Shown here piece by piece: positions 19,591-25,389 of a stretch of 32,938 nucleotides of DNA. The notes beneath the pieces are model-generated. The model was not told the origin of the DNA. It saw nothing but the letters and a program-made list of their open reading frames with translations, and ran no database searches. The first letter of the stretch is position 1; every line of letters begins with the position of its first letter. Position numbers and translations under genes: made by a program. Source of the DNA: Candidatus Peribacteria bacterium RIFCSPLOWO2_12_FULL_55_15 (GTDB lineage Bacteria; Patescibacteriota; Gracilibacteria; Peribacterales; Peribacteraceae); contig MFYG01000005.1 of NCBI GenBank assembly GCA_001789045.1, forward strand, positions 1-32,938, written 5' to 3'.

Positions 19591-21525
19591 CTACCGTATC
19601 CGCCGAATCCCCTGCACTCCCGGCACTTGCAAGAGCGCATCGTAGAGATCGCTAAACTCCTGAACATCCTTCACCTCAACGCCTAACCGGTCACAGACAA
19701 TTCCTTTCGATACCTCGTACGTATTCGTGCCCACGATGTTCACCCCTCGTTCCGCAAAACATCGGGTCATCGCATGGAGCACACCCGGTCGATCGGTGAG
19801 GGTGACATCGACCGTGACCATTGTCCCCGGCACGAGAGGACGAGGACACCGGATACAGTGGCAGCGAACGAGGAGATGTAAGAGAAAACCTGTAGGATCT
19901 TCGAGAAGCGCTCGGTACTCCAGAGCAACGCGGTCCACCGAAACGATCCCTGCGCCAATCTGCTCGAGAAGATTCCTAAAATCCTCCTGCTTCAGTCGCC
20001 CGACAAGCTCCCGTTGTAAAAAGGAAAAACGGAAAAGCCACGAAAGCGGCAAGAGATGCTTCCCGCACTCATGGACGAGGAGGAATTTCCCCTCTTCCTC
20101 CAGTTTATCCGGAGAGATGCCATTCGCCATCCGCCGGAGATCTTCCTTCGCAGCGATCGTTTTCGCGCGCTGCCGCCAGAGCGCATCGCGACCATTTCCA
20201 TCCACATCCGTAAAAAGCAGCTCGACCGTATCGCCGTCGTGAAGCTCTCCGGTCACTTCGCGCTGCACGCCATTCACCCGCATCGCCGCAAGGTGCGTGA
20301 TGAATGACGTATCGAGCGCTGCCGCAAGATCGATCCCCGTCGCCCCGCGTGGGAGCGTCACAATCTCTCCCGAAGGAGTGACAACATTGATCATTTCCTT
20401 GAGAACATTCTCCTTGAGATCCTGTAAATACTCCTCCGGCTTCTCCTCGCGAGCGCTGAGAGCATGCAGCACTTTCGCGAGCGCGTTCTCTCTATCCCCC
20501 ATCCACGCGGACATCTTCCGCATCGTCGCATACTCGTGCATGGACTTCGTCTGCATACGGAGAAGGACCTGGTGATCGTGCGCGATGAAGAGCTTCGTGT
20601 GCAGCGCCCGGTATCCGTTCGGGAGCGGCTGGCTCACAAAATCACGGAAGGCAGTGGGATTGACGTGGAAATGTTGATGGATATCGCCGAGAATCTCGTA
20701 GCACGCGCGCGCGTCCGCATTTGGATCCTCCGGCAGAACCTGCACCGAATCGATACTTCCCGCATCGCGCAAGCGAAGAGGGTTGCCTCCAAACTTCCGG
20801 TAGAGCTCGTAATCAGTCATGAGGATGAGATGCACTTCTGTCGGCGCCTGCGTGACCTTTCGTATGCGCGCGATTGCAGAGAGCCGCCACGGTAAAAGCT
20901 CCTCGCGCCGGCGCGCGATGCGCTCGCGCCACTGCCGTGCTTCTAGAGGGAATGCAATGGGGAAGCAAATTTCCTCGAATCGCCTCTTTGTATCCCACAA
21001 GCCCACCATGCGCGCAAACGGCACGTAAATCTCCAGCGTCTCGCTCGCGATGCGCTCCTGCTTGTCTGACGACAGTGCCCCGATGGTTTCGATATTATGG
21101 AGACGGTCCGCAATTTTAATGAAAATAACCCTGAGATCGTCGCTCGCCGCGAGCAGCATTTTCCGGAGTGACGCAATCTGCCGCTCCGATCGCTTCCCTT
21201 CATACCGCAACTTTGTTAGCTTGGTCACGGCATCGACCAAACGTCGCACCTCATTCCCAAATAACCGCTCCACCTCGTCAAAGGTGGTACATCCATCCTC
21301 TACTACATCGTGAAGAAGACCGGCAATCAGCGTTGCCCCACCGCATTCCAACTTCGCAAGAAAGAGCGCCGTGGCGATCGGGTGAACGACATACGGATCC
21401 CCGGAATGTCGGAACTGCCCCTCGTGCCATGTCTTTACCTGCTGCAATGCTCGCTCGACACCATCACGTTCCGTCGAGGGAACGTAGCGGATCGCTGCGA
21501 GAAATTCTTGCTCTTTATCATACAT
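19591..21525 (-). CDS. spoT: RelA/SpoT homologue, apparently hydrolase-only
   Basis: This is a ppGpp-metabolism protein of about 644 residues from ATG 21525 (MYDKEQEFLAAIRY); ATG 21603 is possible but would overlap the ileS leader. The HD hydrolase domain is intact: HPIATALFLAKL, LLHDVVEDG (His72, Asp73, Glu76, Asp77) and IKIADRLHN. The synthetase region is recognisable only by its frame (YELYRKF, CYEILGDIHQHF, NGYRALHTKLF). GRxKH, the D-x-x-A-x-R strand (here IDSVQVL) and the ExQIRT motif (here LLRMQT) are lost. TGS (VTPSGEIVTLPRGATGIDLA) and a C-terminal ACT domain (VDVTLTDRPGVLHAMTRCFA) follow. It probably degrades but does not make ppGpp. It is divergent from ileS across 84 bp. Confidence 0.88.
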   Translation of the reverse strand: MYDKEQEFLAAIRYVPSTERDGVERALQQVKTWHEGQFRHSGDPYVVHPIATALFLAKLECGGATLIAGLLHDVVEDGCTTFDEVERLFGNEVRRLVDAVTKLTKLRYEGKRSERQIASLRKMLLAASDDLRVIFIKIADRLHNIETIGALSSDKQERIASETLEIYVPFARMVGLWDTKRRFEEICFPIAFPLEARQWRERIARRREELLPWRLSAIARIRKVTQAPTEVHLILMTDYELYRKFGGNPLRLRDAGSIDSVQVLPEDPNADARACYEILGDIHQHFHVNPTAFRDFVSQPLPNGYRALHTKLFIAHDHQVLLRMQTKSMHEYATMRKMSAWMGDRENALAKVLHALSAREEKPEEYLQDLKENVLKEMINVVTPSGEIVTLPRGATGIDLAAALDTSFITHLAAMRVNGVQREVTGELHDGDTVELLFTDVDGNGRDALWRQRAKTIAAKEDLRRMANGISPDKLEEEGKFLLVHECGKHLLPLSWLFRFSFLQRELVGRLKQEDFRNLLEQIGAGIVSVDRVALEYRALLEDPTGFLLHLLVRCHCIRCPRPLVPGTMVTVDVTLTDRPGVLHAMTRCFAERGVNIVGTNTYEVSKGIVCDRLGVEVKDVQEFSDLYDALLQVPGVQGIRRIR

Positions 21526-21609
21526 ATCAATCGAGCATTCTACCGTTCTTCTTAGCAAAGGAAAGCCAAAGTTTTGAGCAACTGGCCAACGACCATTCGT
21601 CATGGTGAT

Positions 21610-24600
21610 ATGCAAAGCTCAGCAATACTTCCTCTATACTCTCCACTGCGTTCCCCCCGATGCGTGCCTTTCGATCCCGTTGATCCCAAGCAATCCTTCC
21701 CTGCGCTTGAGCGCGGCATCCTTGCGTATTGGAAGAAGGAAGACATCTTCCGTCGGAGCATCCGCGCACGCCGTGGACGTACGGTATTCCGCTTCTATGA
21801 CGGCCCTCCTTTCGCCACAGGCCTCCCCCACTACGGCCACCTCCTCGCGGGAACCATCAAGGACGTGATTCCGCGCTACCAGACGATGCGCGGAAAGCAT
21901 GTCGAGCGGCGCTTCGGGTGGGATTGCCACGGCCTCCCCATCGAGTACGAAATCGAGAAGGAACATGGCATCAAGGGGAAGAAGGACATCGAGACGATGG
22001 GCATCGCGAAGTTCAATGCTCTCTGCCGCTCGGCGGTGCAGCGGTACACGAATGAATGGAGGACGACGGTCGAGCGCATGGGACGGTGGGTCGACATGGA
22101 CTGGGACTACCGGACGATGGACCCCGATTACATGGAATCCATCTGGTGGGTCTTCAAAGAGCTCTGGGAAAAGAAACTCATTGAGGAAGGGCATAAACCA
22201 ATGCACGTCTGCCCACGGTGCGTGACTCCTCTCAGTAATTTCGAGGTGACGCAGGGATATAAGGAAGTGACGGATCTCGGTGTGGTGGTGAAGTTCCTCT
22301 CCCTTCAAAGGGAGAGGGTGTATCTCCTCGCATGGACGACGACGCCGTGGACACTCCCCGGGAACCAGTTCCTCGCCGTGAAGCCACGGGCGCAGTACGT
22401 GCGCGTGCAGTGCGAGTGGTATGACTACATCGTCGCGAAGAAGTGCGTGGAGAGGATATTCACCGGGAGAGACTACGAGATCATCGGCAAACCGTTCACG
22501 TCGCAGGAACTCGTGGGGAAGAGGTATGAGCCGGTGTTTCCGTACTTCGAGGGGGAAACACGTTCCTTCCGCATCGTCGCTGCAGATTTTGTGACGACCG
22601 ACGAAGGCACGGGCATCGTCCACATCGCGCCAGGGTTTGGGGAAGACGATTACAAGGTATGGGAGAGGGCGTTTCGCACTTCGACTACGCTCAGTGTGAC
22701 ACCACCCCTCCTCCAGCACGTCACGATGGATGGCCGCTTCACCAACGCGGTGACGGACTTCGCAGGATGGGAAGTGAAGCCAAAAGACGATCCTCTGAAG
22801 ACCGACGGGAAAATCGTGGAATATTTGGAAAAGAAAGGACGCGTGTTCTCCAAAGAAACTGTCCGCCACAGCTATCCCCACTGCTGGCGGTGCGACACGC
22901 CGCTCCTCAATTACGCGACGAGTTCGTGGTTCGTGAACGTCGGGAAGATCAAAGAAGACCTTCTCACGGCGAACAAGGAAACGGAGTGGGTGCCCGCGCA
23001 CCTGCGCGACGGACGCTTCGGCAAGTGGCTCGATGGCGCGCGGGACTGGGCGATCAGCCGACAGAGATATTGGGGAACACCACTGCCCATCTGGCGCTGC
23101 AGTGACGATATTGTCGTCATCGGCTCCCGCGATGATCTCATGAAGTATTGCCCCGAGCGCTTCACGAAGGTGACGGTGCTGCGGCACGGGGAGAGCGAGG
23201 GAAATCTCCGGGAGATATACCAGGGGGAGGTTCCGGGGACGAGCCTTACGGCAGAGGGAAAGCGGCAAGCCGCCGCGGCGGCGTTGGCGTTTCACGCGGA
23301 AGAAATCGCCGCCATCTACGCCTCCCCCCTCGCCCGTACGCGGGAGACGGCCGCGATCATCGGCCAAATCGCCGGCGTTTCCGTCACCGTCGATGAGCGG
23401 CTGCGCGAGAGCGCATTCGGCACCTATGAGGGAAAATCCATCGGCCTCGACGAACGCTCGTTCCTCCGTACTGCGCGCCGCAACCCCGCACTCGATCCCA
23501 AAAATCCCGCGCACATCGCGCAGGCCGCCGGTGTGGAGATGTGGGCGCAGGTGCAGGTGCGCATCGCCTCCTTCTTTGCGGATATCCTCCCCCGTCACCG
23601 TGGGGCGCATATCATCCTCGTCTCCCACGTAGACCCCATCCAGAACATCATCCATTTTTTCACGCGGGAAGACCCCATCAAGATTTCGCGGCAACCATAC
23701 CCGTTGTACGCCTCCACGCGCACGTTCTTCTGGGACCACGAGACGAAGGCAGAACTCGATCTCCACCGTGAGACCGTGGACACTATAACCTGGAAAGACC
23801 GCGACGGAAGGACCTTCCGCCGCATTCCCGATGTCCTCGATTGTTGGTTCGAGTCGGGAGCGATGCCGTACGCGGTGAAGGAAGGATTCCCTGCCGACTT
23901 CATCGCAGAAGGCATCGATCAGACCCGCGGGTGGTTCTATACTTTGATGGTTCTCTCCACTGCTCTCTTCAAACGCCCTGCCTTCCGCCACTGCATTGTG
24001 AATGGGATTGTCCTTGCAGCAGACGGAAAGAAGATGAGCAAGCGCCTCAAAAACTACCCGGATCCCACGGCGCTCGCGGAACGGCACGGCGCGGATGCGA
24101 TCCGCTTCGCCATGATGCAATCGCCAGCCGTCCGCGCGGAGGACCTGCGCTTCTCGGAAAAGCTCGTCGAAGAGACCGTGCGCGCAGTCATCCTCCCCCT
24201 CTGGAACGCGTACGGCTTCTTCGTGACCTACGCGAACCTCGCGCACTTCGATCCCCCCTCCGCATCCGCCCACTCCTCTCACCCCCTTGACCAGTGGATT
24301 CGCGCAGAAATTCAGGACATCACCAACCGCATGACAGAGGAACTCGATCGGTACAATCTCTCCGCAACGTGCAATGAGCTCCATGCAACGATCGACGCTC
24401 TGACGAATTGGTACATCCGCCTTTCGCGTCGGAGGTTCGCCGGCCACGGCAGTCGCGACTGCCGTGGTGGGCAGGGAGGGAGAGAAGAGGTCGACCACGA
24501 GGAACAGAGCGCAGCGCTCGCGACGCTCCACGACGTCCTCCTCACCATCGTGCGCCTCCTCGCACCCTTCTGTCCCTTTATTGCGGAAACGATCTATCGG

Positions 24601-25389
24601 AACCTCGTCCCGGAGGAGTACAACTCTGTCCATCTCACTGATTGGCCAAATCCCCGCGCTCTCTCCTCCGAAGAACACGCGCTTCTCCAGAAAACGCGCA
24701 CATTTCGTCGCATCGTCTCCCTGGGGCTCCGCGCACGGTCCGAGGCTGGCATAAAACTCCGCCAGCCCCTTACCTCTGCGCACATTGCCATTCCTCCAGC
24801 TCTCCTCCCTCTGGAAACTCTCTCGCGCGAGGATATCCTCCTCCTCGAGCAAGAGCTGAATGTCGAATCCATTTCCCTCCTTGCCGATCCCGGGATGCTC
24901 GGAGAACGCATCGCGTTCGTCGATGCTCGCAGAGCCGGCCCGCGCCTTGGAGCCCGTGTGCAAGACGTGATCGCTGCTGGGAAACGCGGAGAGTTTGAAG
25001 AGCGAGACGACGGGTCGTTCCGCATCCTCGATGAACTCCTCACACCCGAAGAAGTCCATATCGTCTACCAGGGGAGAGACGGAGAACAGGTACAGGGAGA
25101 AGGAGGCGTCGTTGTGCGTGTCAACACGCACATGACGGATGCTCTGCGACAAAAGGGTCTCGCCCGCGATCTCATCCGCGCAATCCAGCGTCTGCGGAAG
25201 GAGGCTGGACTCAAAATCTCCGACCACATCGTGCTCAACATCGAGGGTATAGATGGTGTCGTCCGAGAATACGGCGATCTCATCGCGAAGGAAACACATG
25301 CAATCTTCGGTAAAGTCTCCAATGGAACATCGCATGCTGTCGATCTCGCTGGACAGAAAATCACCATCCGCTTCTCCTACGCACAATGA
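21610..25389 (+). CDS. ileS: Isoleucyl-tRNA synthetase with inserted histidine-phosphatase domain
   Basis: The product is 1259 residues from ATG 21610; in-frame TTG 21574 is less likely. This class Ia synthetase attaches Ile to tRNA-Ile. It has PHYGH (HIGH) in PPFATGLPHYGHLLAG, the type-2-like block WDCHGLPIEYEIEKEHGI, the editing-domain block WTTTPWTLPGN and HIAPGFGEDDY, RDWAISRQRYWGTPLPIW, DVLDCWFESGAMPYA, DQTRGWFYTL and KKMSKRLKN (KMSKS). Between IWRCSDDIVVIGSRDDLM and DLHRETVDTITW about 190 extra residues form a phosphoglycerate-mutase-type domain: RHGE (His526), SPLARTRETA, LRESAFGTYEG and VSHVD (His673). Three palindromes lie in frame (22296, 22672, 24444). The C-terminal anticodon-binding region is complete. 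Confidence 0.96.
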   Translation: MQSSAILPLYSPLRSPRCVPFDPVDPKQSFPALERGILAYWKKEDIFRRSIRARRGRTVFRFYDGPPFATGLPHYGHLLAGTIKDVIPRYQTMRGKHVERRFGWDCHGLPIEYEIEKEHGIKGKKDIETMGIAKFNALCRSAVQRYTNEWRTTVERMGRWVDMDWDYRTMDPDYMESIWWVFKELWEKKLIEEGHKPMHVCPRCVTPLSNFEVTQGYKEVTDLGVVVKFLSLQRERVYLLAWTTTPWTLPGNQFLAVKPRAQYVRVQCEWYDYIVAKKCVERIFTGRDYEIIGKPFTSQELVGKRYEPVFPYFEGETRSFRIVAADFVTTDEGTGIVHIAPGFGEDDYKVWERAFRTSTTLSVTPPLLQHVTMDGRFTNAVTDFAGWEVKPKDDPLKTDGKIVEYLEKKGRVFSKETVRHSYPHCWRCDTPLLNYATSSWFVNVGKIKEDLLTANKETEWVPAHLRDGRFGKWLDGARDWAISRQRYWGTPLPIWRCSDDIVVIGSRDDLMKYCPERFTKVTVLRHGESEGNLREIYQGEVPGTSLTAEGKRQAAAAALAFHAEEIAAIYASPLARTRETAAIIGQIAGVSVTVDERLRESAFGTYEGKSIGLDERSFLRTARRNPALDPKNPAHIAQAAGVEMWAQVQVRIASFFADILPRHRGAHIILVSHVDPIQNIIHFFTREDPIKISRQPYPLYASTRTFFWDHETKAELDLHRETVDTITWKDRDGRTFRRIPDVLDCWFESGAMPYAVKEGFPADFIAEGIDQTRGWFYTLMVLSTALFKRPAFRHCIVNGIVLAADGKKMSKRLKNYPDPTALAERHGADAIRFAMMQSPAVRAEDLRFSEKLVEETVRAVILPLWNAYGFFVTYANLAHFDPPSASAHSSHPLDQWIRAEIQDITNRMTEELDRYNLSATCNELHATIDALTNWYIRLSRRRFAGHGSRDCRGGQGGREEVDHEEQSAALATLHDVLLTIVRLLAPFCPFIAETIYRNLVPEEYNSVHLTDWPNPRALSSEEHALLQKTRTFRRIVSLGLRARSEAGIKLRQPLTSAHIAIPPALLPLETLSREDILLLEQELNVESISLLADPGMLGERIAFVDARRAGPRLGARVQDVIAAGKRGEFEERDDGSFRILDELLTPEEVHIVYQGRDGEQVQGEGGVVVRVNTHMTDALRQKGLARDLIRAIQRLRKEAGLKISDHIVLNIEGIDGVVREYGDLIAKETHAIFGKVSNGTSHAVDLAGQKITIRFSYAQ
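22296..22317. repeat. Family B palindrome in frame within ileS
   Basis: CCTCTCCCTT (22296-22305) and AAGGGAGAGG (22308-22317) are perfect complements with loop CA. It encodes LSLQRER between VVVKF and VYLLAWTTTPWTLPGN, just ahead of the editing domain. Confidence 0.7.
22672..22702. repeat. Family A palindrome in frame within ileS
   Basis: CGCACTTCGACTACGCTCAG then TGTGACA matches the copies at 154 and 6170. It encodes FRTSTTLSVT after HIAPGFGEDDYKVWE, where other IleRS have a shorter, different link to the G-R-F block. Confidence 0.65.
23167..23748 (+). other. Inserted histidine-phosphatase domain of IleRS
   Basis: This roughly 190-residue segment begins KVTVLRHGESEGNLREIYQG and ends near the YASTRTFFWDHETK block. 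It keeps every catalytic feature of the branch-1 histidine phosphatase superfamily: the phospho-acceptor His in RHGE, the Arg of LARTRETA, the Glu of RESAFGTYEG and the second His of VSHVD. ERLRESAFGTYEGKSI resembles alpha-ribazole phosphatase/PhoE-type enzymes. Its reading frame is continuous with IleRS on both sides. Substrate unknown. Confidence 0.9.
24444..24467. repeat. 24-bp perfect palindrome in frame within ileS
   Basis: CCACGGCAGTCG is immediately followed by its reverse complement CGACTGCCGTGG with no loop. It encodes GHGSRDCRG within an unusual insert between NWYIRLSRRRF and the ATLHDVLL helix of the anticodon-binding domain. Confidence 0.8.

Follow-up and report, generated by a model that had tools for sequence, protein, structure and literature searches.

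The isoleucyl-tRNA synthetase (IleRS) encoded in the window, the whole 32,938-nucleotide stretch of DNA analysed here, contains a complete histidine phosphatase domain nested within the synthetase. At least 77 distinct IleRS proteins carry such a phosphatase, and every one whose record names a group comes from Patescibacteria. An assembly artefact or chimera has a negligible probability, because the same architecture occurs in all these proteins and in many assemblies; the lone artefact considered in the initial annotation is ruled out by the other insert-bearing IleRS. The chances are about even that the phosphatase has been kept by selection, and that it is tethered to the synthetases of aliphatic amino acids because proximity to them matters.

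The window IleRS and its nested domain

The window ileS is a single open reading frame of 1271 codons (Table 1). Its true start is TTG at 21574 or ATG at 21610, and it may be the ATG; residue numbers are counted here from the TTG. The protein matches the TIGR00392 ileS model with 836 bits (cut-off 621.4). The Pfam tRNA-synt_1 match is split in two and flanks the His_Phos_1 match; the IleRS is contiguous before and after the insert, as had been noted initially. The PHYGH, KMSKR, TTTPWT, and GTGIVHIAPGFGEDD motifs were all found. In an alignment of 47 IleRS sequences (A1), the HIGH (HYGH in the window), KMSKS, and CP1 editing motifs occupy invariant or almost invariant columns, as do the TTTPWT and GTG..H.A...D positions. 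The AlphaFold2 model of residues 40-1075 has a mean pLDDT of 88.7 and a pTM of 0.86, and IleRS structures are its top matches in the PDB (7d5c, Z 44, 810 residues, 3.0 Å). The window synthetase appears to be intact, judging from its sequence and model. Since the IleRS motifs are present and the model is IleRS-like, the phosphatase adds to the editing domain and does not replace it. No other full IleRS was found in the window genome (895,810 bases, 96% complete), so this enzyme is presumably functional.

In type-2 IleRS, two connective peptides, CP1 and CP2, separate the halves of the HUP core (PMC10485003). A short in-frame repeat lies in the CP1 editing region (Table 1); it also occurs at positions 162-177 of the window, and the first part of it has 7 copies in the window genome with up to 3 mismatches. 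The CP1 of another IleRS (L070) holds a different repeat-like stretch, CHSREGGNPDPRVKPEDD.

The phosphatase was placed in CP2, where it follows the CP1 editing domain and precedes the second half of the catalytic (HUP) core, between the GSRDDL and DLHRETVD segments. It is bounded by ...VIGSRDDLMKYC upstream and DLHRETVDTITW...RRIPDVLDCWFESG downstream. The Pfam His_Phos_1 match covers residues 534-715 (E=6e-34, 117.8 bits; gathering cut-off 21.7), and all of the catalytic residues are present. The complete domain reported initially is therefore confirmed; its limits, given as 23167-23748, are better placed at about 23152-23757 by alignment. The two active-site residues named His526 and His673 are real and correspond to His538 and His685, as the earlier count ran from the ATG at 21610.

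Table 1. Coordinates of the features discussed (window positions unless a locus or genome is named)
Feature	Position	Strand	Basis or remark
RelA/SpoT-family gene, divergent neighbour	19591..21615	-	Pfam/NCBIfam; adjacency not kept in relatives
ileS, type-2-like isoleucyl-tRNA synthetase containing the phosphatase	21574..25389	+	1271 aa; ORF and Pfam/NCBIfam profiles
Short repeat GTTTCGCACTTCGACTACGCTCAGTGTGACACC	22671-22703	+	In frame inside the ileS CP1 editing region
His_Phos_1 (histidine phosphatase, branch 1), site A	~23152..23757	+	Pfam PF00300, alignment, model, PDB fold matches
Arg537-His538, RHG motif, nucleophilic His	23182..23187	+	Invariant in 42 aligned site-A domains
Arg588, second phosphate-binding Arg	23335..23337	+	Invariant in 42 aligned site-A domains
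Glu612, general acid	23407..23409	+	Invariant in 42 aligned site-A domains; conserved in 97% of 75 non-redundant ones
His685, second catalytic His	23626..23628	+	Invariant in 42; 100% of 75
Site B, empty in the window	23797..23826	+	Second phosphatase here in most family members
Stand-alone histidine phosphatase	G000:C1:35008-35580		Window genome (G000)
UvrB with histidine phosphatase and Ser_hydrolase domain between helicase halves	L120:1061-4435	+	Genome G042
Alanyl-tRNA synthetase with nested histidine phosphatase	L214:2303-5485	+	Genome G058; catalytic Glu not aligned
IleRS, 1490 aa, with a GNAT domain among ~370 additional residues at site C	L125:1106-5575	-	Genome G058; PF00583 1.7e-13
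IleRS, 1311 aa, in-frame Y1_Tnp (IS200-like transposase) in CP1	L133:323-4255	+	Genome G041; PF01797 5.4e-13, MPNHIHLVV motif
D-2-hydroxyacid dehydrogenase with C-terminal histidine phosphatase	L219:2985-4643	-	Genome G151

The AlphaFold2 model of the phosphatase domain alone has a pLDDT of 90 and a pTM of 0.87. Its PDB fold matches have Z scores of 20-24.5, and the matches listed are histidine phosphatases or mutases. The top folds are PspA (4ij6, Z 24.5) and then PhoE (1h2e, Z 23.4); a sequence-profile search of the PDB gave the same ranking. The two best-scoring NCBIfam models are dPGM_arch and PRK07238. However, the domain falls far under the cut-off of every named NCBIfam subfamily, including NF038349 (dPGM_arch, 99.9 against 225), NF045917 (PspA, 73.4 against 350), TIGR03162 (the alpha-ribazole phosphatase CobC, 72.8 against 162.9), and TIGR01258 (cofactor-dependent phosphoglycerate mutase, 25.2 against 81.7). 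The substrate is therefore not readable from the sequence. The profiles and models are best read as a histidine phosphatase from the PhoE/PspA-like branch that is predicted to be catalytically competent.

Sites, hosts, and history of the phosphatase

Intact phosphatase domains were found at four sites of IleRS, with one to three per protein. Site A, the one used in the window, is flanked by GSxxEL and DLHRPYID, and site B by DLHKHxVDxxTW and RIPEVLDCWFESG. The flanks of site C are GAMPYA..YPF and PADFIAEG; those of site D, where the anticodon domain begins, are TYANID and LDxWIxxEL. Most Peribacteraceae carry both A and B; the window IleRS has A only. One IleRS holds B, C, and D copies (L087), and another holds three copies (L217). 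Besides the three IleRS sites that the initial annotation had not covered, the phosphatase was found in ValRS, AlaRS, and UvrB. ValRS contains one to three copies, mainly in the loop homologous to A/B; AlaRS in one genome and UvrB in another contain one each.

To sample the spread among IleRS, 59 relatives were searched and GTDB contigs were scanned. The presence of His_Phos_1 at the same site in other IleRS, which the initial annotation had proposed to look for, was established in many Patescibacteria. The insert-bearing groups are the Peribacteria, Gracilibacteria-type lineages, and many Parcubacteria (Taylor-, Wolfe-, Kaiser-, Vogel-, Lloyd-, Sungi-, Jorgensen-, Campbellbacteria, and others). 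Among the best 80 of 565 relatives in the GTDB-wide scan, the named insert-bearing ones are Patescibacteria. The 30 loci without the insert among the first 80 belong to Komeilibacteria, Spirochaetes, Verrucomicrobia, Chlamydiae, and others.

Host proteins were counted in a PF00300 survey, in which the loci were read and tallied by hand. In the class sample of 60 genomes, 37 had the domain in IleRS, 10 in ValRS, 1 in AlaRS, and 1 in UvrB; aminoacyl-tRNA synthetases thus account for 48 of the 49 host occurrences. Genomes of the phylum outside the class (n=73) added 8 IleRS and 2 ValRS cases. Class genomes that read TGA as Gly (code 25) also have IleRS-nested phosphatases, up to three per protein (L131, L216, L217, L230, L232-L235, and L237). 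A dehydrogenase with a C-terminal histidine phosphatase (L219, Table 1) is encoded divergently from an enolase gene, and it is likely a lactate dehydrogenase-phosphoglycerate mutase fusion.

Conservation of the active site was analysed in 75 non-redundant site-A copies with a mean pairwise identity of 30%. The catalytic His, the second Arg, and the second His are conserved in 100% of these copies, the first Arg in 99%, and the Glu in 97%. The mean column conservation is 0.44; the best-conserved positions include the catalytic residues. In the alignment of 42 site-A domains (A2), the invariant columns are R11, H12, N18, G36, S58, R62, T66, E86, R137, and H159, which are essentially the catalytic and phosphate-binding set. 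The catalytic residues, whose conservation across homologues was the other check suggested initially, are therefore retained at 97-100%. All 26 rows labelled as site B retain all catalytic residues, and the second His is retained in 13 of 15 site-D rows; catalytic residues are lost in a few site-B or site-D copies. The ValRS copies retain the Glu in only 10 of 16, with Asp in 2. The active site thus appears to be under selection, with most copies looking live and a minority looking decayed. A degenerate domain was rejected for sites A and B because of the retained catalytic residues.

A catalytically dead domain with a structural role, for example as a substitute for a CP2 zinc ribbon with lost Cys ligands, is very unlikely. 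The window IleRS and its closest relatives do lack most of the Cys pairs seen in many insert-free or Parcubacterial IleRS, which would suit such a role. However, the most conserved positions of the domain are the catalytic residues; many insert-bearing IleRS retain the Cys pairs, whereas some insert-free ones lack them.

A phylogenetic tree of 176 phosphatase domains showed grouping largely by site, with 17 label changes in all, where shuffling gave a mean of 91.7. The B, C, D, and ValRS copies form groups mostly apart from A, and the AlaRS copy is nested within the ValRS group. Second copies in two IleRS (L018 and L037), which a motif rule had labelled A, belong to the B group. A tandem duplication of A as the source of site B is not supported, since the B copies cluster separately from the A copies. 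The UvrB copy clusters with copies from site A, including one from its own genome; this suggests that the phosphatase may have been copied between host genes, although both branches are long. The stand-alone phosphatases are mostly in other groups than the fused copies, and the fused copies are not simply the housekeeping phosphatase of the cell. In the tree of IleRS cores stripped of their inserts, A is present in both main Patescibacterial IleRS groups, and B was repeatedly gained or lost inside the window's family. As the copies at each site mostly cluster together, several captures, at four IleRS sites and in the homologous ValRS loop, are likely; many inner branches of the domain tree are weakly supported.

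Possible roles of the nested phosphatase

If the phosphatase is tethered for its function, IleRS would carry it in cis, and it would be retained by selection for its chemistry. The benefit might be a phosphatase held beside the editing synthetases of aliphatic amino acids (Ile, Val, and once Ala), where it could strip phosphate from something that appears or accumulates at the synthetase. IleRS, ValRS, and AlaRS are synthetases with editing activity. Because these three are the main hosts, the candidate substrates may include a phosphorylated small molecule (for example an inhibitory analogue or a by-product of the reaction), a phosphorylated tRNA end, and the phosphorylated synthetase itself. 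With the active site kept and several separate entries indicated, the substrate probably matters to translation.

Alternatively, IleRS might serve only as an essential, highly expressed, and insertion-tolerant scaffold, with proximity to aminoacylation having no function. Active domains would lodge in it by in-frame recombination, and would persist through a general job or because removal is hard. We regard this as a serious possibility, short of an even chance. Several observations are consistent with it: the GNAT acetyltransferase at site C of one IleRS (L125), which has no phosphatase domain; the Y1_Tnp transposase domain in the CP1 of another (L133); the single UvrB that holds both a phosphatase and a Ser_hydrolase domain; and the AlaRS phosphatase, which groups with the ValRS copies as if copied between host genes. 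Judging from these nested domains (GNAT, transposase, and hydrolase), essential genes may be used as domain hosts in these genomes. The unrelated domains nested in IleRS of the class fit this alternative and count against tethering. The site-B copies also come and go; because they were lost or gained several times in one family, at least the site-B copy appears to be dispensable, which likewise counts against tethering. However, random landing in essential genes predicts many hosts, whereas the hosts found in the class sample are nearly all IleRS or ValRS. Repeated capture of one superfamily at several sites would also be unexpected if the insertions were neutral. A tethered function is favoured because of this strong bias to IleRS and ValRS.

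The phosphoglycerate mutase of the cell might instead have moved into IleRS, which is very improbable. The dPGM_arch model is one of the two best matches, yet the score is 99.9 against a cut-off of 225, and some genomes lack any other PF00300 protein. On the other hand, the nested domain co-occurs with the unrelated iPGM (for example in G021, G036, G054, G067, G072, and G076), and is present in genomes without detectable enolase (G000, G042, G046, G056, G066, and G088). Among family members, the genomes in which iPGM was found (G007 and G021) have no stand-alone phosphatase, and those in which it was not (G011, G012, G023, and G029) do have one; the stand-alone copy is therefore the likelier mutase and the better candidate for this activity. 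Apparent complementarity between nested and stand-alone copies is better explained as one between the stand-alone phosphatase and iPGM. A relocated glycolytic mutase was rejected by the iPGM and enolase surveys. In the window genome (96% complete), neither enolase nor iPGM was detected. This genome has a stand-alone histidine phosphatase (Table 1).

The nested phosphatase might also act on alarmones such as (p)ppGpp, for which we see very little chance. A RelA/SpoT-family gene lies head to head with ileS in the window, and the initial annotation had raised a link to alarmone or nucleotide signalling from this divergent ppGpp hydrolase. Of 110 related loci with flanks searched by tblastn with the window neighbours, only one had relA/spoT; some of these loci have short flanks or hold other genes. 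The adjacency is therefore probably incidental, and the proposed link is not supported. To our knowledge, there is no alarmone-specific signature for this PhoE/PspA-like branch.

Tethering to the editing synthetases might have a further meaning. The phosphatase could be a Patescibacterial module dedicated to editing aminoacyl-tRNA synthetases, recruited independently (into IleRS loops, into ValRS, and once into AlaRS) and acting on a phosphorylated, translation-linked substrate that other bacteria are not known to have, for example a phosphorylated tRNA end or synthetase, or a toxic phosphorylated analogue. We propose this tentatively, as a doubtful but possible extension. If true, the dedicated module would add a new step to tRNA charging, serving proofreading, repair, or protection. 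Aminoacyl-tRNA synthetases are indispensable and highly conserved, and a second enzyme inside one of them, predicted to be catalytically preserved, is a costly choice in a genome of about 0.9 Mb. That the phosphatase recurs in ValRS and at four sites of IleRS suggests selection for a function beside tRNA charging, one that standard bacteria do without or solve otherwise. What the nested phosphatase dephosphorylates becomes a concrete question in this mostly uncultured lineage.

Comparison with known systems

The core of the window IleRS is 42-44% identical, by structure alignment, to type 2 IleRS (Priestia megaterium IleRS2, 8c8u; yeast IleRS, 7d5c; Z 39-44), and shares with them the HIGH, KMSKS, and CP1 editing motifs. 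However, the window enzyme has an enzyme domain of about 200 residues in CP2, whereas the known IleRS2 structures do not. The nested domain has the same fold as PspA (4ij5/4ij6) and PhoE (1h2e), with Z scores of 24.5 and 23.4 over 190 residues. The catalytic set is common to all of them, although the identity is only 26-27%. PspA (a metal-independent phosphoserine phosphatase) and PhoE are stand-alone proteins, whereas the window domain is nested.

Other synthetases also contain extra catalytic domains. The NCBI exception model NF040702 (ileS_w_GNAT) likewise describes an IleRS with an additional enzyme domain, but it is a GNAT and not a phosphatase. The window protein scores 279 against its cut-off of 1999, and the GNAT-bearing IleRS described above (L125) scores 295, also under the cut-off. 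The CP1 editing insertions of class Ia synthetases similarly set a catalytic domain in the connective region, and catalytic-domain insertions in the connective region of LeuRS have been catalogued (PMC13114784). In contrast to these editing insertions, the phosphatase belongs to another superfamily, is added to an intact CP1, recurs at several sites, and is also present in sister enzymes.

Members of the same superfamily are also found in multidomain proteins, such as the RNase HI-phosphatase (PRK07238), MutT1 (NUDIX-phosphatase), and PFKFB. In these proteins, the phosphatase is joined end to end to a metabolic or repair partner, whereas the window phosphatase is nested inside a translation enzyme. 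The initial annotation knew of no such architecture as a described system, and we likewise found no published description of a phosphatase within IleRS in the open-licence literature, which is weak evidence of absence. Both component families are known; the nested and recurrent arrangement is the new part.
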